This document shows, piece by piece, positions 54,828 through 64,000 of a stretch of 64,000 bases of DNA. The notes beneath the pieces were generated by a model. The model was not told where the DNA came from and ran no database searches. It saw only the letters and a program-made list of their open reading frames with translations. Every line of letters starts with the position of its first letter. Position 1 is the first letter of the stretch. Location: the NCBI GenBank assembly GCA_020439745.1, contig JAGQSC010000064.1, forward strand, positions 1-64,000. Direction: 5' to 3'. Source of the stretch: Acidobacteriota bacterium (lineage in GTDB: Bacteria; Acidobacteriota; Holophagae; Acanthopleuribacterales; Acanthopleuribacteraceae). A program made the position numbers and the translations under genes.

Positions 54828-55936
54828 GTTGTCTTCTTGGGCCTGAGCTCAAAGGCAACCCAAAACAACGACAGCATCAGTCCAACCACAAAGGCAAAGA
54901 TGGTTTTGAATAGGGTACCCCTTGGTTCGCGCACCACCAACGGATCCGGATTGGCTGGCGAAAACAGGTGAGAAAGGACTTGCACATACTGCCAGTCGGA
55001 TTCGATCTGCGTTCGGAGGTCATCATCGTCAGGCCGGTCTCCATAGAACGACTGCACGTCTGCCAATCCGCCATTCCTTGATAACAGATCATCCACCATG
55101 GTTATGGCTGCTTGTCTATGTGCGATCAGTTTCTGATAGAGACCCATCAATTTGAGTCGATGTTCTGAATCCAGTTCTCCTCGAACCGAGTCGGCAGCGT
55201 GGAGTTGTTGTTGATAGGTAACCGGTAACTTGGAACGATCTAACTGCGCGATATCCAGGACCACATCATTGCCAATTTCCTTCGGCTTCACTTGAGCCAG
55301 ACCCGCCGCCGTATTGCGTTCCTTTTCAATCAGCCATGTGGACTGGGGCTCAGTTAGATTGAGCGCCACCAACTCGTTCCGAAGTCCCTGGTTGCGGCTT
55401 TCAAGATAATCGCGATAAAGATACAGCACCTGCTGTTGCTCTACATTGTGTCGTAACGCCGCAATGCAAGCACCGGCTTCGTTTTCTGCCATGCCCGCAA
55501 CGCGCACTTCAATCAAGTCGGCCTTGAGTCCCTCGAGTTTTTCCAGATTCTCGGCCCATGATCGATCGAGGGTAATGCGTAGGTTTGTTTTCTTGCGATA
55601 GTCAATATAGTCAGGCTTCACAGACACATCGAAACGCGAACGCATGGACTCTTCGCTGTGGGGACCTTTGAGCCATTCCGCCATTTCAGAGGCCTGTCGT
55701 TGTTCCGATTGATCCTGTAGCCTGCGTTTGTTGCTTTGGCTGTAGAAGCGACCCAAAAAAGTCTCCAGTGCAGCCGCATCGAAAGGCAGAACCTGAGGCG
55801 ATGTGCGATAAAAGAGTACAGCTCGAAAGGACGGCGTGCTGGAAAGTGACATCGCGGCCACAAGCACGGCTAGGGTCATAGGCACGGCGATCACTTTGTA
55901 GCGATTCGCCCAAATCGCGTGTATGAATTCCGGCAT
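54824..55936 (-). CDS. Wzz-like polysaccharide chain-length/co-polymerase membrane protein
   Basis: A 370-residue protein with a membrane segment at each end (about 16-33 and 340-362) and a large, mainly helical, coiled-coil-rich periplasmic region between, the layout of Wzz/PCP-1 chain-length regulators. A signature Pro-Gly-rich stretch before TM2 reads NPDPLVVREPRGTLFKTIF, similar to PCP proteins. There is no Walker kinase domain, so it is a PCP-1-type or partial PCP-2 protein. It is the first gene of the unit with the two radical SAM genes and divergent from the Wzy-like polymerase gene, with the 5' ends close together. Confidence 0.7.
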   Translation of the reverse strand: MPEFIHAIWANRYKVIAVPMTLAVLVAAMSLSSTPSFRAVLFYRTSPQVLPFDAAALETFLGRFYSQSNKRRLQDQSEQRQASEMAEWLKGPHSEESMRSRFDVSVKPDYIDYRKKTNLRITLDRSWAENLEKLEGLKADLIEVRVAGMAENEAGACIAALRHNVEQQQVLYLYRDYLESRNQGLRNELVALNLTEPQSTWLIEKERNTAAGLAQVKPKEIGNDVVLDIAQLDRSKLPVTYQQQLHAADSVRGELDSEHRLKLMGLYQKLIAHRQAAITMVDDLLSRNGGLADVQSFYGDRPDDDDLRTQIESDWQYVQVLSHLFSPANPDPLVVREPRGTLFKTIFAFVVGLMLSLFWVAFELRPKKTT

Positions 55937-56017
55937 GGATCAGCTAGGCTCCTATCAACACAGGCATCTCAATATGCACGATGGTACAACAACGCAGGCA
56001 TTAGTGAAGTTTCAATC

Positions 56018-57241
56018 ATGGATGTGATGACCGGGATCACCATCTTAATCGTCACGGGACTGTTGATCAAACTGACCGATCACGAGTTTCGCCAACCCTA
56101 TCACCCCTTGAAGCTGTACCTGGCCATTTGGGGACTTGGACTGGGCCTGGCTTCGCTACCACTTGTGGACTACACACCCATCACCTCGGCGGGTTGGATC
56201 GCAGCCAGCTTGGGAGCCATCGCATTTTCCGGTGGAATCTTAACCACTTCGTGGGGATGCCCAAGACAGCCCTCTGACTTGACCATTGACACCCAATTAC
56301 TGAGCCGTATTCTCGTCTACAGCACCGTGGTTGGCTGTCTCGGTACCGTCCTACAGGCGATGTTCTTGGAACGATCGTTCGGGCTGGATGTGTACCTCAC
56401 CGATCCCGTTGAAGCGCGACGTCTTCACACACATATCCCCATTTGGGGCTATTTGGATTTGGTCAATACCGTCAACGTGGCCGCAGTAGCCCTATATTGG
56501 CAAAAAACTGGTAGGCCGCGTCTGTTCATGTGGCTCACTTTGGCATCGGCCACTGCCTCGGCTTTGCTGACAACAGACAGAACCCGGTTCTTTTTGATGC
56601 TGATCTGGGCCGAACTCGTAGCCGGATCGCGTAATCCACGTCGACGTTATCTGCGAATCGGTATCGTGGCGGTCATCTTAATCGGTTACTTCTCCGTGAT
56701 TGGGGATCATTACGAGCGCAGCTACCTGGAACGGTTTCAGCACATCATCCACTTACCCAAACCCTTGAAAATACTCGCCGATCCCTACATCTACTACACG
56801 TCTTCGTTTACGGCCATGGGCCAACTCGTCGATCAACCCTCGACAATGCTGATGGGCAAATCCTCGTTTGCCCCTATTGTTCACGTGGCAAGCGCTGTTT
56901 GGGACATTGAGCAGGCACCTTTGGTCGGGGAATTCACCTATGTCCCCATGGAAGTGAACACCTACACCTATCTCAGGCAGTTCTATGCCGATTTCGGGTG
57001 GCTGGGCATCGTACTGGGTCCCTATTTGTGCGGCCTTTTTTGTGGTTGGACCGAGGTCAAACGCCGAAACAATCCCACCGTCGGTTGGTCATTGCTCGCT
57101 GCTTTGATGGGTTATTGTTGTGTCATTAGCACCTTTGAAAACCTGTTTATTCAAGAGGCCATCTGGTTCTTGGCCGTGATATGCGCAGCGCTGGGATTCT
57201 ATGAACAACGACGCTATTCACGAGAAAGCAGCATCGAATAG
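56018..57241 (+). CDS. Oligosaccharide repeat-unit polymerase (Wzy-like)
   Basis: A 407-residue integral membrane protein with about ten to eleven segments and the pattern of the O-antigen/oligosaccharide polymerase family: DRTRFFLMLIWAEL (about 187-200), FTAMGQLVDQ (about 264-273) and NTYTYLRQFYADFGWLGIVLGPY (about 317-339). It polymerises lipid-linked oligosaccharide units in the periplasm. The start is ATG at 56018 although an upstream in-frame ATG at 55919 exists; the earlier one overlaps the start of the Wzz-like gene. Its 3' end overlaps the GT4 gene by 28 bases. Wzx and an initiating glycosyltransferase are not in the window. Confidence 0.75.
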   Translation: MDVMTGITILIVTGLLIKLTDHEFRQPYHPLKLYLAIWGLGLGLASLPLVDYTPITSAGWIAASLGAIAFSGGILTTSWGCPRQPSDLTIDTQLLSRILVYSTVVGCLGTVLQAMFLERSFGLDVYLTDPVEARRLHTHIPIWGYLDLVNTVNVAAVALYWQKTGRPRLFMWLTLASATASALLTTDRTRFFLMLIWAELVAGSRNPRRRYLRIGIVAVILIGYFSVIGDHYERSYLERFQHIIHLPKPLKILADPYIYYTSSFTAMGQLVDQPSTMLMGKSSFAPIVHVASAVWDIEQAPLVGEFTYVPMEVNTYTYLRQFYADFGWLGIVLGPYLCGLFCGWTEVKRRNNPTVGWSLLAALMGYCCVISTFENLFIQEAIWFLAVICAALGFYEQRRYSRESSIE

Positions 57242-58326
57242 ATCTTTTCGTAAGCTTGGCCTGCAGCCACAACGGTCAGTTGCTTCGTTTGGTCTTGGAT
57301 CCTTGTCGTTATTTGCTTTACTTGCTGAGCGTCGCCTGATAGCTCGACGATGAGTTCCGCCAATCCCGCCACATCGCGGGGCTCACAGGTAGGTAACCAC
57401 TCAGACCAATCCCGAAGCAGACCCACCCGTGTACCAGCAATGGGTATCCCCGCCGCACCTGCCTCCACAAACACGACGCCTTGCGACTCATGTCGCGACC
57501 CATGGAGCAGCAGATCCGCCCATTTGTAATGTTCAGGCATCCGATCCGGAAGCACCTCAGCCACCCAATCAACGAAGGGATGACTGGTGAGTTTCTGCAC
57601 TACATCCCTTTCGACGGCGCCGCCCACAATACGCCATTCCAACGGTACAGTCTGAGAAACCTGCAACACGGCTTCCAACAAGGTCAAATAGTCTTTTACC
57701 CGGTTCACCGATCCCACCGACAACACACGCAGCGGTTGATGTGGGATACGAACAGGGCCTTCAAATTGCTGCCAAGGGATCCCATAGGAAACAACCGAGT
57801 TGCGGTCCATGGTTCCTACACAACCGAGGGTTCGTGCTTTTTGGTCTTGAGAGGGAAAAACGATCATGTCCGCATGGCGACACACCCACTTCAACAACCT
57901 ACGCGACCACCATGTGAGTTGACCGCCATAGCCGATATCCGGCAAGCACGCGGGTTCAAAACCATTGAACGTCACCACACAGGGAATACCTAGAGAACGG
58001 GCGGCCCACACCGCTGCAGCACCTCCGGGATATCCCCAGATCCCGTGAATCAAGGACAAGGGCTGTTGGCGATGCATGCGTATCAAGCGCTGCTTCAACC
58101 CCCAAATCTGGGCGAATACATGACGCTGAGGCGCAACCCGTTCAACACCAGGCAATGATTCAGACGGATTCCCAAAACATACGCGATCCACTGAAAACCG
58201 CCGAGATAGGTGTTCAAACAGTGAAACGAGAGCAGGGACATATTGACCATCGCCCCTCTTGACCAGCCCACCATGTGCCACCCAAGCCACTCTTGCTTGC
58301 GCTATGGGCTGTACCTTCTCGTTCAT
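57214..58326 (-). CDS. GT4-family glycosyltransferase
   Basis: A 370-residue GT-B fold glycosyltransferase, retaining GT4 type, that transfers an NDP-sugar. The C-terminal Rossmann domain shows LRVLSVGSVNRVKDYLTLLEAV and the donor-binding motif HGSRHESQGVVFVEAGAAGIP (E-x7-E pattern). The N-terminal domain begins at about residue 10 with ARVAWVAHGG. The start is set at 58326 on the N-terminal fit of the family, with an upstream ATG at 58368 as an alternative that would overlap the methyltransferase gene. It is convergent with the polymerase gene and divergent from the methyltransferase. Confidence 0.82.
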   Translation of the reverse strand: MNEKVQPIAQARVAWVAHGGLVKRGDGQYVPALVSLFEHLSRRFSVDRVCFGNPSESLPGVERVAPQRHVFAQIWGLKQRLIRMHRQQPLSLIHGIWGYPGGAAAVWAARSLGIPCVVTFNGFEPACLPDIGYGGQLTWWSRRLLKWVCRHADMIVFPSQDQKARTLGCVGTMDRNSVVSYGIPWQQFEGPVRIPHQPLRVLSVGSVNRVKDYLTLLEAVLQVSQTVPLEWRIVGGAVERDVVQKLTSHPFVDWVAEVLPDRMPEHYKWADLLLHGSRHESQGVVFVEAGAAGIPIAGTRVGLLRDWSEWLPTCEPRDVAGLAELIVELSGDAQQVKQITTRIQDQTKQLTVVAAGQAYEKIYSMLLSRE

Positions 58327-58366
58327 GGCCCGATAGAATGGCACAATCTCAAGGATGGATCCAGCC

Positions 58367-59089
58367 ATGACGCGTGCATTCGCTAATCAATACACTGCCG
58401 TGAGAACTCATGAAGGTCGTATCTATTCAGATGACGAGCTTCAAAAACTCCCAGATGTAGACCCCCGACACCCGCTGGTCCACGAATGGGCGTTAAGAAA
58501 AAAGACTGCCGAACGCATTGTTTCATATTCACAAACGATTGGCGCTCAGTCGGTGCTTGATGTGGGCTGCGGCAACGGATGGGCCAGTAAACTGATCGCC
58601 AAATCCGGTCTGTCTGTGACGGCAATCGATGTGAATCAACCTGAACTGGAACAGGCCAAAAGGGTCTTCGCCGACTCACGAAACCTTCAGTTCATGCTGA
58701 TGGATCCTGCAAGGGGCGAACTGCCGACCGGTCCCTTTGATTTGGTCACGTTGATGAGCTCGATCCAATATTTCAGTGACCTCACTGGGCTTATCCACAG
58801 ATTGCTCAGCTGTCTTCAGCATGAAGGCTGCATCCTGATCGCAGACACCCCCTTTTATTCGGTGGAAGAAGCCGATCAAGCGCGCAATCGCAGCCATGAC
58901 TACTACACCGGCATCGGTTACCCCGAATTTGCGGACAACTACCATCACCATACCTGGCCTGAACTCCGACCTTTCAATCCCCAACTGATTTACGACCCCA
59001 GATCCTGGATCTGCCGGTTTCGGCGGCAGGTGTTGCGTCATGTTGTCGTTCCTTTTCCCATGATCGTAATCAAGCGTGGGCCCACGTGA
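58367..59089 (+). CDS. Class I SAM-dependent methyltransferase (polysaccharide cluster)
   Basis: A 240-residue enzyme with motif I LDVGCGNGWASKLI (about 63-76), an acidic AIDVNQPE loop (about 85-92) and a typical VTLMSSIQYFS motif. It looks like the small-molecule/sugar methyltransferases found in O-antigen clusters. The start is ATG at 58367 with AAGGATGG upstream; an ATG at 58355 lacks spacing to a ribosome site. Its last codons overlap the start of the next glycosyltransferase (GTGA), so the two are coupled and probably modify the same glycan. Confidence 0.8.
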   Translation: MTRAFANQYTAVRTHEGRIYSDDELQKLPDVDPRHPLVHEWALRKKTAERIVSYSQTIGAQSVLDVGCGNGWASKLIAKSGLSVTAIDVNQPELEQAKRVFADSRNLQFMLMDPARGELPTGPFDLVTLMSSIQYFSDLTGLIHRLLSCLQHEGCILIADTPFYSVEEADQARNRSHDYYTGIGYPEFADNYHHHTWPELRPFNPQLIYDPRSWICRFRRQVLRHVVVPFPMIVIKRGPT

Positions 59090-60126
59090 AAATTGCCCAC
59101 ATATGTCACTTCAGGACGCCATCGCCCCAACCGCCCACCGTGCACGCACTGCTCAGCGAGCTCGCGCACTTGGGTCACGAGGTCATCGCCTTCTCGCGTT
59201 CCATGGGACCAAAACTGAAAAGCCCTTATGAGGTCGTCCAGGTTGAAGATCGATTCCCTGACGCAATCCGAATGCGCCAGATACCGAAGTCACTGCACCG
59301 ATCCGTGCTCGAATCACAACCCGACGTCATTTGGATGCAGTCGCTCAACTATCCCCGTGCCCTGGCCCACCTGGCCCGAGATCACGGACGTTTATTCGCC
59401 CAACATCACGGCGAACGGCCGTTGCGCGGCATGGGCCGCTGGATTCAGAAGCTGGCATTTAATCGCGCTGCCGGTTTCCTCTTTTGCGGCGCGCAGAATG
59501 GGGCTGAGTGGATGGAAGCCCATCTCGTGACCCGATCCCAAATTCACGAAGTCCATGAGGGAAGCACGCTTTTCCAACTGGTGGCTCCCGAGCAAAAAGA
59601 ACACAAAACCATTGCCTGGATAGGACATCTCAACCCGAACAAGGATCCCTTGTTCGTGCTCAATGGACTGGAGCCATTCCTGACGGAAGATCCTCGACTC
59701 AGACTGGTCATGGCCTTCGGACAGGCACCCTTGATGCCGAAGGTTCAAGAGTGGATATCCCATCATCCCAACATTGCCAAGCAGATCGATTTGTTGGGCT
59801 CCATACCGCCTGACCATGTGGAGCAGTTTCTCAATCGCGCACGGTATTTCGTGAGCGCCAGCCATCGCGAATCTACAGGCTATGCCCTGTGTGAAGCCAT
59901 CGCGTGCGGTGCCACCCCGATCGTAACCGATATCCCTTCTCATCGGTATCTCGTTCAGGAATGTGGCTTCCTCTACAAACCAGGCGACATAGACATGTTT
60001 CGCGATGCCCTCTCCTGCGCTTTGAACCAGCCAATTCAGCCACCATTGCTACGGCAGCATTTCGAGGCGCACCTCAGTTACCCAGCTATTGCCAAGCGAC
60101 TTTCCGACATTTTCGCCAACGCCTAA
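59086..60126 (+). CDS. GT4-family glycosyltransferase, second of the cluster
   Basis: A 346-residue GT-B glycosyltransferase. The N-terminal domain starts KIAHICHF and the C-terminal domain has KTIAWIGHLNPNKDPLFVLNGL and the donor-site motif ASHRESTGYALCEAIACGATPIVTD (about residues 263-287, E-x7-E type). It starts at GTG 59086, overlapping the methyltransferase stop by four bases. The acceptor is probably a lipid-linked oligosaccharide. It ends four bases into the convergent methyltransferase gene at 60123-60881. Confidence 0.85.
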   Translation: MKIAHICHFRTPSPQPPTVHALLSELAHLGHEVIAFSRSMGPKLKSPYEVVQVEDRFPDAIRMRQIPKSLHRSVLESQPDVIWMQSLNYPRALAHLARDHGRLFAQHHGERPLRGMGRWIQKLAFNRAAGFLFCGAQNGAEWMEAHLVTRSQIHEVHEGSTLFQLVAPEQKEHKTIAWIGHLNPNKDPLFVLNGLEPFLTEDPRLRLVMAFGQAPLMPKVQEWISHHPNIAKQIDLLGSIPPDHVEQFLNRARYFVSASHRESTGYALCEAIACGATPIVTDIPSHRYLVQECGFLYKPGDIDMFRDALSCALNQPIQPPLLRQHFEAHLSYPAIAKRLSDIFANA

Positions 60127-60881
60127 TTCGGGTTTTTCAGCACAAGCACCAAGTGGTCACCACCAAACCAACACACCCGCGACACAAGTCGATCGAGTGG
60201 TCGTATCAAGGCGTTCCAGAACCGAGCCATTAAGAATCGTTCACTCTGCGCAGGTGTCGATAACAGTGGTCCCAAAGACCTGCTGTCGATGACCTGCCAG
60301 GAGGGCGCAAAAGATGATCGGCTCACATAAGAAAACAGCCATCCGTCTGATGTGACCGCTTCTCGATGGTGCAGGCGTCGCCAAAGGGCCGACCAATCGC
60401 CGCTCAATAACTGACTGAAAGCAGACATCAGGTGAAGAGGCGGCATCACCACGACGATCAACACACCGCCAGGATTCAAATGTTGGCGCATTTGCTGATG
60501 AACATCCAAATCCGAGGGAAGTGCATTCCAGACGCCAAAATTGGCCAGAATCACGTCGTAGGGGCCTTCCAATTCATCCAAAGAACCAAGTCTGACATTG
60601 ATCTTGCAGTCCACAGGTAGCTTGGACTTGGCCACGTCCACCATTTGCGGCGAAATGTCATACGCATCGACGCTCAGGCCTCGATCCAGCCAGAAAGGAA
60701 AATCGGATCCCGGCCCACAGCCAAAATCCAATACCGACGCATCGGGTGAGAGCCATGGATCGATCATCTTGTAGATTGCGTCGCGGAAGCGCCTCACCTG
60801 AGGATTCTCATTGAAGCGATCGTACGATTGCGACAATCGATCAAATACAGAGGCTGCCTGTGCGCAATCTGACTGGGTCAT
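60123..60881 (-). CDS. Class I SAM-dependent methyltransferase, second of the cluster
   Basis: A 252-residue enzyme with motif I LDFGCGPGSDFPF (about 50-62), an AYDISPQMV loop (about 72-80), and a late WNALPSDLDVHQQMRQHLNPGGVLIVVV segment. The start is set at ATG 60881; the open frame continues far upstream but that part is antisense to the membrane-protein gene and has no coding character. It ends by overlapping the GT4 gene head-on. The substrate is unknown, but the context suggests a sugar or lipid carrier. Confidence 0.75.
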   Translation of the reverse strand: MTQSDCAQAASVFDRLSQSYDRFNENPQVRRFRDAIYKMIDPWLSPDASVLDFGCGPGSDFPFWLDRGLSVDAYDISPQMVDVAKSKLPVDCKINVRLGSLDELEGPYDVILANFGVWNALPSDLDVHQQMRQHLNPGGVLIVVVMPPLHLMSAFSQLLSGDWSALWRRLHHREAVTSDGWLFSYVSRSSFAPSWQVIDSRSLGPLLSTPAQSERFLMARFWNALIRPLDRLVSRVCWFGGDHLVLVLKNPN

Positions 60882-60944
60882 GGGCCATTCTAGCTCAGCC
60901 ACACATACCTTGACCTGAAAATCCGCTCGACGGAAGATAGGCCC

Positions 60945-61886
60945 ATGAACACCCTCACACGCCGAATAGTTCTCGTGTTTCTTGCGGCCACGATCACCGT
61001 CAGTAACCGAGAAGCCATGCGATTGAGTGAGCGCTCCAACGTGGATCTGGTGGCCGACATGCAATTCGAGATCGACGGCGTGCTCAATCACCATTTCGGC
61101 GGACCCTACGGCTACCGAGTTCTGGTCCCATACAGCGTCCACGCCCTTTCGACATGGAGCGGCATCACACCCACACACGTTGACTGGATACTTCAGTTCC
61201 TCTGGGTTCTGATCGCACTTGAACTGATGTGGGCCGTCAGTGGGCGCAACCACCTGATTGTGGCTTTACTGGCGTTTTATTTGGTGGTCTGCCAGAGCTA
61301 CATTCCCGGTCCTTCCATAGCCGAAACACAAGACGTCATCAACTTAGCCGTGTTCTTGGGATTCATCCACAGCCACCGGAAACAACATACCCTCGCAGCA
61401 ATGCTGTGGATGGCCCTGGGACTATTGAATAAGGAAACGCCTTTTGCGCTATTCATCTACCTGGGTTATTGGCTGTTTGTCGTCGGAGACCGCTACGCCC
61501 GCAGGATTTCACTTCCCCTCATTGCTATTGCCATCGTCACGTTTGTCGCGCTTCACTTGGCGATTCCATCTAGCTCGGGCTCGTGGTTTCAGTTCAAGCT
61601 ACTCCACACCAATTTTTGGGGTCCTTATGCACTGAAAAACAACCTTTACGCGCTGTTGTTACTAGCACCCTTGATCGGTTCCGCCGTTAAGTCACAGTTG
61701 ATCAAGCCGAGCAGTTTCAACCGATCCATTCTTGCGACGGTCGGGTTTCTCATCGCCGTTCACTATGTCTTTGGGGTCGTACGCGAGCTTCGGCTTTGGC
61801 TTCCCGTCATCGCCTTGTTGCTCATCGCCAGTGGCCCTTTCATGCGTCAACTCGCCAGTCCACCCGCAAAATCAGAACTAGAGTGA
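60945..61886 (+). CDS. Polytopic membrane protein of the polysaccharide cluster, unknown function
   Basis: A 313-residue protein with about eight to nine hydrophobic segments. It carries GPYGYRVLVPY (about 53-63) in the first periplasmic loop and NKETPFALFIYLGYW (about 161-175) near the middle, a layout that recalls GT-C fold transferases that use polyprenyl-phosphate sugars. No DxD or EFWxR-type motif is plain. It may add a side-branch sugar in the periplasm. It is separated from the methyltransferase by 63 bases, divergent from it, and ends 78 bases before the oxidase-like operon. Confidence 0.6.
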   Translation: MNTLTRRIVLVFLAATITVSNREAMRLSERSNVDLVADMQFEIDGVLNHHFGGPYGYRVLVPYSVHALSTWSGITPTHVDWILQFLWVLIALELMWAVSGRNHLIVALLAFYLVVCQSYIPGPSIAETQDVINLAVFLGFIHSHRKQHTLAAMLWMALGLLNKETPFALFIYLGYWLFVVGDRYARRISLPLIAIAIVTFVALHLAIPSSSGSWFQFKLLHTNFWGPYALKNNLYALLLLAPLIGSAVKSQLIKPSSFNRSILATVGFLIAVHYVFGVVRELRLWLPVIALLLIASGPFMRQLASPPAKSELE

Positions 61887-61964
61887 ACATGACAGCCGTC
61901 ATAATCTAGCGACAGAGCCGGATCCCATAATCGCCCTTGGAGACATCACTCACCGGAGGGCCTC

Positions 61965-63350
61965 ATGACGGATCGGGTACAGCGTTCACTATCACGCATG
62001 TGGTTTGCCTTGGCCATTGGAAGCTTGGTACTGGCCGGCATACTGGCAGCACTTCTTGTCATCGCCAGGGTCCCACCGTTCCACGACTGGATTACGGATC
62101 CGCTTTTCTTCAAGCGGTGTCTGGTGGTTCACGTTGATTTATCGCTGTTCGTTTGGTTCAGCGCCTTCTTGATGTTTCTGTACTCGCGGCTGCCACGCGA
62201 CCCACATTTTCTGGCTCAGGAAATAGCAGCCATCGCTTGCGCCATCACAGGCGTGATGATGATGGTCATCGCGGCTGGCATGCCGGCATCAACGCCCATC
62301 CTCTCCAATTACCTGCCCGTGATCGACCACCCTCTTTTCTTGGGTGGGCTCGTCGCGTTTGCAACGGGCATCGGTCTCCAAGTGCTACAGCCCAGACTGA
62401 TACCCGATCAGTCTTCCACCGAGACCAGGCTCCCCGAGGTGGCGCAGTTGGGTCTGCGCGCTGCGGGCATCGCCATCTTATTTGCGGTCATCACGATTTG
62501 GGCAGCCTGGTGGCAGACCTCCCGGGCGCTGGGCCCATCAACCTATTTCGAACTCCTGTTTTGGGGTGGCGGACACGTCTTTCAGTTCGCAAACACGTGC
62601 GGCATGTTGGTGGCCTGGACCGCACTTACAGCGTTTGCGACGGGCAAGACGCCTTGCAGTCGGCGAACAGCGTTTGCGTTGTTTGCCTGGCTCTTATTGC
62701 CCGTGTTCGCTGCCCCCCTTCTCACCCTGGCAGGCACCGGGACCACGCTATACCGAACCGCATTCACAGCCATGATGCAGTGGGGTATTTTCCCTGTAGT
62801 GCTCGTGTTCCTGGCCCTGTGTTTCCGCCGTTTCTGGCAAACCCGTCACCAGCGAGATTCCACCTATCGCATCATCAGGTTGGGTTTCGCGTCCAGCGTC
62901 ACTTTGACGCTCCTGGGTTTTGGGCTGGGTGCCATGATTCGCGGTTCCAACACCCTGGTTCCCGCCCATTACCACGCCAATATCGGCGCTGTGACCTGTG
63001 CCTATATGACGCTCACTTTCGCCATACTCGCCGAGCTGGGCTACCACATCAAATCAATACGGCTGTTGAACTGGTCGCGTTGGCAACCCGCCGCATTTGG
63101 TTTAGGGCAAGCTGTCTTTGCGGCGGGCTTTGGCCTGGCCGGTGCCTACGGCATGGGCCGCAAACTGTATGGATCTGAACAAGCCATTCATAGTACGGCG
63201 GCAAGCGTGGGTCTGGTGGTCATGGGGATTGGCGGTCTGATGGCCATTGTGGGCGGCATTGCCTACCTCACGGTCTCACTGCACGCAATGGCACATGCCG
63301 ACCAAGACGACACCGCGCCCGTCGGCGAAAAACAAATTGCAACTATTTAA
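61965..63350 (+). CDS. Heme-copper oxidase-like subunit I lacking the helix VII CuB histidine pair
   Basis: A 461-residue membrane protein with about twelve helices of the heme-copper oxidase (COX1) superfamily. Helix II histidine His56 (VVHVDLS) would bind low-spin heme, His204 in WGGGHVFQF matches the helix VI copper/iron site, and His335/His337 in PAHYHANIG match the helix X H-x-H heme ligands. No histidine occurs between about residues 205 and 294, so the paired helix VII ligands (AHH or PHH in known families) are missing; the region reads GTGTTLYRTAF. The helix VI tyrosine position (His+4) is Phe208. The protein may be a divergent NO reductase or a non-oxidase electron-transfer subunit. 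GGAGG precedes the ATG. A small subunit and a CuA subunit follow. Confidence 0.85.
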   Translation: MTDRVQRSLSRMWFALAIGSLVLAGILAALLVIARVPPFHDWITDPLFFKRCLVVHVDLSLFVWFSAFLMFLYSRLPRDPHFLAQEIAAIACAITGVMMMVIAAGMPASTPILSNYLPVIDHPLFLGGLVAFATGIGLQVLQPRLIPDQSSTETRLPEVAQLGLRAAGIAILFAVITIWAAWWQTSRALGPSTYFELLFWGGGHVFQFANTCGMLVAWTALTAFATGKTPCSRRTAFALFAWLLLPVFAAPLLTLAGTGTTLYRTAFTAMMQWGIFPVVLVFLALCFRRFWQTRHQRDSTYRIIRLGFASSVTLTLLGFGLGAMIRGSNTLVPAHYHANIGAVTCAYMTLTFAILAELGYHIKSIRLLNWSRWQPAAFGLGQAVFAAGFGLAGAYGMGRKLYGSEQAIHSTAASVGLVVMGIGGLMAIVGGIAYLTVSLHAMAHADQDDTAPVGEKQIATI

Positions 63351-63361
63351 GGAGGTTTCAT

Positions 63362-63508
63362 ATGAGTCAAGATCCAAAGCACCCACTCCAGAAACTCCTA
63401 GACAACCCCTGGCTATTGCTCGCCCTTGGGATTCTAGTTCCTGTCCTTTCATACACGGTATGGGGCTGGATTGAGTTGGCCAATCTGGGCGCGGCGCAGT
63501 TGCCGTGA
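63362..63508 (+). CDS. 48-residue single-span membrane subunit of the oxidase-like operon
   Basis: A 48-residue protein starting at ATG 63362 with AAGGAGG seven bases upstream, between subunit I and subunit II. A short polar N-terminus (MSQDPKHPLQKLLDNP) leads into one hydrophobic span (about residues 17-38, WLLLALGILVPVLSYTVWGWI) and ends at QLP. Small accessory subunits of this size occur in cbb3- and ba3-type oxidases. The role is probably assembly or stability. It is not recognised as any named family. Confidence 0.7.
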   Translation: MSQDPKHPLQKLLDNPWLLLALGILVPVLSYTVWGWIELANLGAAQLP

Positions 63509-63533: not shown

Positions 63534-64000
63534 ATGAGTATTCACATACCCGAAAAAGACTGGTTTAAGGCCCCCACTGGCGGCGAACGCGTTTGGATCG
63601 CGCTTTCGTTGGTATGGTGCCTGATCATGTTCATCATGATGCCGGTCTGGCACTTTAAAGGAAAACAGAATAGTACAGGGGAAGCCTATCGCGTGGAACC
63701 TGCCCAATTCATGGCCCGCGTCCAACAGTCCATCCAAACCCAGTCCGTGGGCGAGGAAAACGGTGTGCCGATTGTTCAACCGCCGCCCGGAGGCGACGCC
63801 TACCTACTCGGTCAGATGTGGCGCTGGCAACCCATCCTGAAACTCAAAAAGGATCAAAGCTATCGTTTACACGTATCGTCCTTAGACCTGCAGCACGGAT
63901 TCTCGTTGTTGCCGGTCAATATGAACTTCCATATTCTTCCGGGCTATGACCACGTGCTTACGATCACTCCCACGCAAACGGGCGAGTACCAGGTGATCTG
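63534..64000 (+). CDS. CuA-type subunit II of heme-copper oxidase-like complex (partial, runs off the window)
   Basis: The visible 155 residues start at ATG 63534 with GGAGG upstream. One N-terminal membrane anchor (about 21-38, WIALSLVWCLIMFIMMPVW) is followed by a periplasmic cupredoxin domain. MWRWQP and SLDLQHGFSLLP (His in LQHGFS) match the CuA domain, and the NFHILPGYDHVL and TGEYQVI strands follow. The cysteine pair, the second histidine and the methionine of the CuA site would lie beyond 64000, so metal binding is not proven. The pairing with a subunit I without the CuB histidine pair is unexpected. Confidence 0.85.
   Translation, partial: MSIHIPEKDWFKAPTGGERVWIALSLVWCLIMFIMMPVWHFKGKQNSTGEAYRVEPAQFMARVQQSIQTQSVGEENGVPIVQPPPGGDAYLLGQMWRWQPILKLKKDQSYRLHVSSLDLQHGFSLLPVNMNFHILPGYDHVLTITPTQTGEYQVI

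Follow-up and report, generated by a model that had tools for sequence, protein, structure and literature searches.

A heme-copper active site is the defining feature of heme-copper oxidases and their relatives (HCOs). To our knowledge, the noncanonical nitric-oxide reductase families eNOR, sNOR, gNOR and nNOR keep all three CuB ligands or have at most one of them changed, and an asymmetric pair of a catalytic and a CuB-less subunit has not been described for any heme-copper enzyme. The HCO histidine sextet consists of two ligands of the low-spin heme, one of the high-spin heme and three of CuB or FeB (PMC3413370), and the eNORs, which are related to the B family, are recognised by a glutamine in place of the oxidase tyrosine, Tyr237 (PMC8756737).

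Proteins of this superfamily with altered metal ligands have been described. Like the protein reported here, the putative NO dismutase (NOD) found in Methylomirabilis and its relatives is a paralogue of NOR in which ligands of the second metal are changed, and it too belongs to an NO context (PMC3413370); however, NOD is derived from qNOR and has one ligand histidine changed to asparagine, whereas our protein is of B-family/eNOR descent and has lost two. In Acetobacter, a 'deranged' COX1-like protein was likewise kept in its gene cluster after the loss of metal ligands, beside ctaB, and was proposed to act as a CtaB stabiliser (PMC10715153); it has no cofactor ligands, whereas the protein described below keeps all its heme ligands and accompanies an eNOR.

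Operon layout

The window, i.e. the whole stretch of DNA analysed, is the first 64000 bases of a contig that is 78 kb long. The operon continues beyond the window end, and coordinates past 64000 are given in contig numbering, which is continuous with that of the window. The features are as follows.

61889..61902, no strand: perfect palindrome ATGAC-AGCC-GTCAT upstream of the twin gene, candidate CRP/FNR-family (DNR/NNR-like) site
61965..63350, + strand: CuB-less HCO subunit I paralogue (hereafter the twin, P0001), 461 aa, first gene of the operon, ORF intact
63362..63508, + strand: membrane protein of 48 aa with a single helix, probably a peptide like subunit IIa in B-family HCOs
63534..64000, + strand: CuA-type subunit II (PF00116), cut by the window end; whole gene contig 63534-64058, 174 aa
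contig 64068-65765, same strand as the twin: predicted eNOR-type catalytic subunit I (P0004), 565 aa, complete
contig 65789-66760: SCO, the operon gene after the eNOR subunit I
contig 66735-68828 (L020:8735-10828): cytochrome b-2[4Fe-4S]-FlpD fusion, the operon gene after SCO

An earlier note on this DNA had placed the twin in an operon with a CuA-type subunit and tacitly taken it for the catalytic subunit. The first statement holds in that the CuA gene belongs to the operon, with its motif CNEFCGIGHHLM (C-x3-C-x3-H-x2-M) just past position 64000; both this gene and the operon run past the window, however, and a second, complete subunit I lies there, its start 718 bp downstream of the twin. 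The tacit assignment thus fails. The downstream subunit, P0004, carries the motifs HQSQQ in helix VI, AHH in helix VII and HFH in helix X; its sextet of HCO histidines is complete, the three CuB ligands included, the eNOR glutamine occupies the Tyr237 position, and the CuA (cupredoxin) gene is immediately upstream. P0004 is predicted to be the real catalytic subunit of the operon and a nitric-oxide reductase, NO being the substrate suggested by the eNOR signature and the literature. The label "cbb3-type" is borne by annotated relatives of this downstream subunit.

A PF00115 search revealed four HCOs in the host genome, one of them directly downstream of the twin (match 64149-65435); the others are aa3, aa3 and cbb3, which leaves the eNOR as the sole NOR candidate detected in a genome that is 97% complete. 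NirS is present (E 8e-153), and no NirK scored over the cut-off. The 48-aa protein occupies the same gene position as subunit IIa of B-type oxidases, which is encoded directly upstream of subunit II (PMC3128077). The 697-aa fusion combines a PetB-like cytochrome b, two [4Fe-4S] motifs and an FlpD/MvhD domain. Just 5' of the operon, at 55919-61886, lie polysaccharide biosynthesis-like genes (glycosyltransferases, a polymerase-like membrane protein and methyltransferases) with no obvious relation to it.

Ligands and fold of the twin

The twin alone had no match in Pfam, NCBIfam or PDB sequences (phmmer), and single-sequence searches of genome contigs and, by tblastn, of plasmids returned no relatives; the family was reached only by an orthologue alignment. 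The same-genus orthologue (G366; L021/L033, Holophagae bacterium OFTM365), 69% identical to the twin, scores above the PF00115 cut-off, which marks the twin as a divergent HCO. Among solved structures, the Thermus thermophilus ba3 oxidase (PDB 1xme/3s8f) was closest in sequence; the twin shares its 12-helix core and aligns with it as a profile over the whole length (E 1e-10). In this alignment, four of the six metal-ligand histidines of ba3 (H72, H233, H384 and H386) correspond to His56, His204, His335 and His337 of the twin, and R449-R450 to the basic pair Arg399-Lys400 of the heme propionates. The CuB ligands H282/H283, in contrast, fall on Ala250/Pro251, no alternative histidine pair emerged, and the twin has no equivalents of Tyr237/Tyr244/Tyr248 or S309/T312/T315.

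The AlphaFold2 model of the twin (pLDDT 94.1, pTM 0.93) has 12 long helices, with His56 in helix II (48-73), His204 in helix VI (191-226) and His335/337 in helix X (331-354), while helix VII (233-255) contains no histidine. All matches listed by Foldseek for this model were HCOs or NORs (one NOR among them). The ORF, the profile alignment and the model thus agree with the earlier note, which had named His56, His204, His335 and His337, Gln207 and Phe208, and had pointed to the missing helix VII pair and to the lack of histidine between residues 205 and 294. Judging by the alignment, His56 and His337 would be the ligands of a low-spin heme and His335 that of a second heme, with Arg399-Lys400 holding the heme propionates.

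The congener (L033/G366) has the same residues as the twin at the ligand positions. The two copies differ by a dN of 0.25 with dS saturated, a pattern by which the twin evolves under constraint.

The twin family

The orthologue-alignment search of one-per-species genomes yielded 451 relatives, so that the guess that similar WGGGH and HYH proteins exist elsewhere proved right. The best 80 of the 451 formed the study set; residues were counted over 83 aligned sequences and gene neighbourhoods over 81 loci. The aligned relatives come from Acidobacteriota, Myxococcota, Verrucomicrobiota, Planctomycetota, Spirochaetota and Calditrichota, with Pelagicoccus (locus L064) as a cultured member; none was found in the viral contigs searched. 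PF00115 matched 48 of 80 members, and no NCBIfam model matched any of the 80.

His56, His204, His335, His337, Trp200, Asn115, Tyr116 and Pro251 are invariant (83/83), Arg399, Lys400, Tyr402 and Gln406 are found in 82/83 and Gln207 in 81/83. Both helix VII CuB ligands are missing from all 83 sequences, the residue before Pro251 being A, G, M, L, S or V. Position 208, equivalent to Tyr237 and the place of the catalytic Tyr, Glu or Gln, is V, F, A, L, I or M, and the positions of the ba3 K-path (215, 219, 278, 281 and 284) are largely hydrophobic. Beyond the four histidines listed, no other is invariant across the 83 sequences; the family therefore has no substitute CuB pair, and a hidden replacement pair was rejected. 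With the sequence, fold and 12-TM core of the HCO superfamily and four of the six histidines of its sextet, the twin family is, as judged from sequence, a branch of the superfamily that departs from the superfamily's own histidine signature.

Known identities do not fit the twin. It is not one of the noncanonical NORs (eNOR, sNOR, gNOR or nNOR), having Phe208 at the glutamine position and no histidine pair, nor an NO dismutase, as it has two ligands replaced, neither by Asn, and branches with eNORs in a tree that did not include qNOR/NOD. Assignment to the B-family (ba3) oxygen reductases fails on the absent Tyr237 equivalent and the largely hydrophobic K-path positions, and to the cbb3 (C-family) oxidases on the CcoN model, which was among the NCBIfam models without a match in the 80 members. 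NnrS (PF05940) is likewise a polytopic membrane protein of NO-response clusters and lies near the twin in one genome (G326), yet Pfam scans of 80 members gave no PF05940 match.

No name or description of the family was found in the openly accessible literature, a scope that leaves out most subscription titles, among them the principal study of eNOR (Murali et al. 2024, PNAS). The NnrR-regulon paper and the Sulfolobales fox-cluster papers describe no such protein.

Linkage to one eNOR clade

In a tree of 64 HCOs, which held no qNOR/NOD sequences, the twins formed one clade (support 100) joined to the eNORs, apart from the ba3 and A/C-type enzymes (99); where exactly they attach is uncertain owing to the length of their branch. 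The twin-linked eNORs also formed one clade (99), with the exception of the eNOR from G326, a genome in which the twin is divergent and not linked to it. In 70 of 81 loci, the eNOR follows the twin on the same strand at a distance of at most 1.2 kb, the twin usually being the gene that opens the operon, and the linked subunits are 66-88% identical to P0004 (the window's own copy excluded). Among 67 linked eNOR subunits, the six histidines, Gln237, Tyr248, Ser310, Thr316 and the Arg pair are all invariant. Compared with P0004 in its own operon, the twin is shorter (461 versus 565 aa) and lacks the helix VII pair, the glutamine (Phe208) and the polar residues of the K-path.

Distances among twins correlate with those among their eNORs (r 0.85), and other operon genes behave likewise, which indicates that the operon was inherited as a unit; the twin has evolved faster than the eNOR (mean distance 0.54 versus 0.29). 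Small-protein homologues were found between the twin and the CuA gene in 43 of 81 loci, and a homologue of the cytochrome b-FeS-FlpD fusion follows eNOR-SCO in 62 of 81. It is possible that this fusion is a dedicated electron-input module for eNOR.

Of the 11 loci without a linked eNOR, three end at contig ends, one is masked and seven are real exceptions, namely six from Planctomycetota and one from Calditrichota; four of these six Planctomycetota genomes have an eNOR elsewhere. The Planctomycetota twins of L066, L086, L093, L095, L102 and L108 adjoin a lipoprotein-like monoheme cytochrome c instead of an eNOR operon, some with a siroheme-synthase-like gene also nearby. Within a sample of 246 Planctomycetota genomes, the twin was present in 18, of which 12 had an eNOR-like gene (on other contigs in 7), as against one of the 228 genomes without a twin (Fisher p 3e-15, with kinship ignored and the top few candidates per genome scored). 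Among 396 Acidobacteriota genomes, nine had an eNOR and three of the nine a twin as well; none had the twin alone.

In G396, G401 and G402, the twin is present and no eNOR was detected. The twins of L039 (Calditrichota) and L083 (Myxococcaceae) adjoin SCO and/or caa3 oxidase genes; an eNOR went undetected in the Calditrichota genome, and the Myxococcaceae genome gave only a weak HCO match. In G326 (Acidobacteriota), the twin is flanked by Ric/ScdA-NnrS on one side and a molybdopterin oxidoreductase cluster on the other, with the eNOR, its small subunit, CuA, SCO and cytochrome b-FeS on another contig. Conversely, searches of the loci or genomes of related eNORs from six Acidobacteriota genomes, Defluviimonas, Thermomicrobium and Thermus turned up no twin, hence eNOR catalysis as such does not depend on it.

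Denitrification context

Over the 81 loci, the neighbours of the twin include NirK-cytochrome c (12), FGE/NirV-like proteins (10), cd1 NirS (5), Ric/ScdA (13), Rrf2 (14), Crp/Fnr (13) and DUF2249 (9), as well as SCO (61) and CtaB/UbiA (33). In 37 of 81 loci, the 220 bp ahead of the twin contain a perfect FNR/DNR-type box, TTGAY-N4-RTCAA (among the L040-L112 homologues, 48-204 bp upstream); these loci are mostly from Verrucomicrobiota and are therefore related to each other. The box score was reached by none of 405 shuffles. The window and its congener L033 share ATGAC-N4-GTCAT at -76.

Discussion

From these results, we infer with moderate confidence that the twin is a non-catalytic, heme-binding paralogue whose partner is a single eNOR clade, its likeliest role being that of an electron-transfer or structural subunit. 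It is encoded by the gene that opens a predicted eNOR-type nitric-oxide reductase operon and is a paralogue of the catalytic subunit I, in which the CuB ligands and the residues of the proton path are gone and the heme sites are kept. The twin would thus be a heme b-carrying membrane partner of eNOR with one bis-His low-spin heme on His56/His337; a second heme on His335 is probable, with His204 as a possible sixth ligand or cap. It may pass electrons to the CuA/eNOR core or pair with it structurally, the core reducing NO to N2O, and the operon would be switched on together with denitrification by FNR/DNR-type (or Rrf2) regulators. The earlier note had suggested that the twin reduces NO or another substrate or only moves electrons. 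The NO context agrees with this, and, since the real catalytic subunit lies downstream, electron movement suits the twin better than NO reduction of its own. A more specific version, which we put forward only tentatively, is a heterodimeric NO reductase, an obligate pair of a catalytic and a CuB-less diheme HCO subunit, the latter being a new electron entry (e.g. from quinol or a periplasmic cytochrome via two low-spin hemes) or an NO-buffering heme.

The main rival is an assembly or maturation factor, which would bind or hand over heme or copper, or stabilise SCO/CtaB, while eNOR (sometimes caa3) is built, and would be absent from the finished enzyme. It owes this rank to the SCO and CtaB/UbiA genes so often close to the twin, to the caa3 context of L039 and L083 and to the Acetobacter precedent. 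We nevertheless consider it rather unlikely: the low-spin pair, the second-heme ligand and the propionate pair are almost always kept with no obvious need for them in a chaperone, the twin gene precedes the structural genes of the operon, and related eNORs manage without a twin.

An independent heme-only enzyme or NO-binding protein, in which the His335 heme with a distal pocket of His204 and Gln207 needs no second metal to bind or convert NO, appears more doubtful still. The near-invariance of the two pocket residues would suit it, as would the twins away from eNOR, e.g. by Ric/ScdA and NnrS in G326 or by cytochrome c in Planctomycetota. However, two of the three CuB ligands, the catalytic residue at position 208 and nearly all K-path polar residues are gone, a loss that argues against independent catalysis, and a complete eNOR is nearly always found in the same operon or genome.

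A purely structural pseudo-subunit, i.e. the inactive half of a heterodimer kept for its fold, with hemes lost or irrelevant, would agree with the intact predicted fold and with the dimers formed by related qNORs (PMC13087809), but is very improbable, as every heme ligand and the propionate Arg-Lys are kept over at least six phyla, an invariance that is unexpected of, and argues against, a fold-only protein. Finally, a frameshift, sequencing error or decaying pseudogene is refuted: a divergent G326 relative (L022:7532-8949, - strand) is apparently split by a frameshift, but the reading frame is unbroken in the window as well as in the remaining 80 loci, the functional residues are invariant, and the congener has the same ligand residues under the constraint described above.

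The twin family is also an annotation trap, because a weak COX1 match would place a member among the oxidases or reductases. The retention of every heme ligand and the loss of the copper site in an ancient and widespread family suggest that the HCO fold was reused as an accessory or electron-transfer subunit. If the twin is indeed part of eNOR, the N2O-producing enzymes of several under-studied phyla would have a subunit that is missing from current models.
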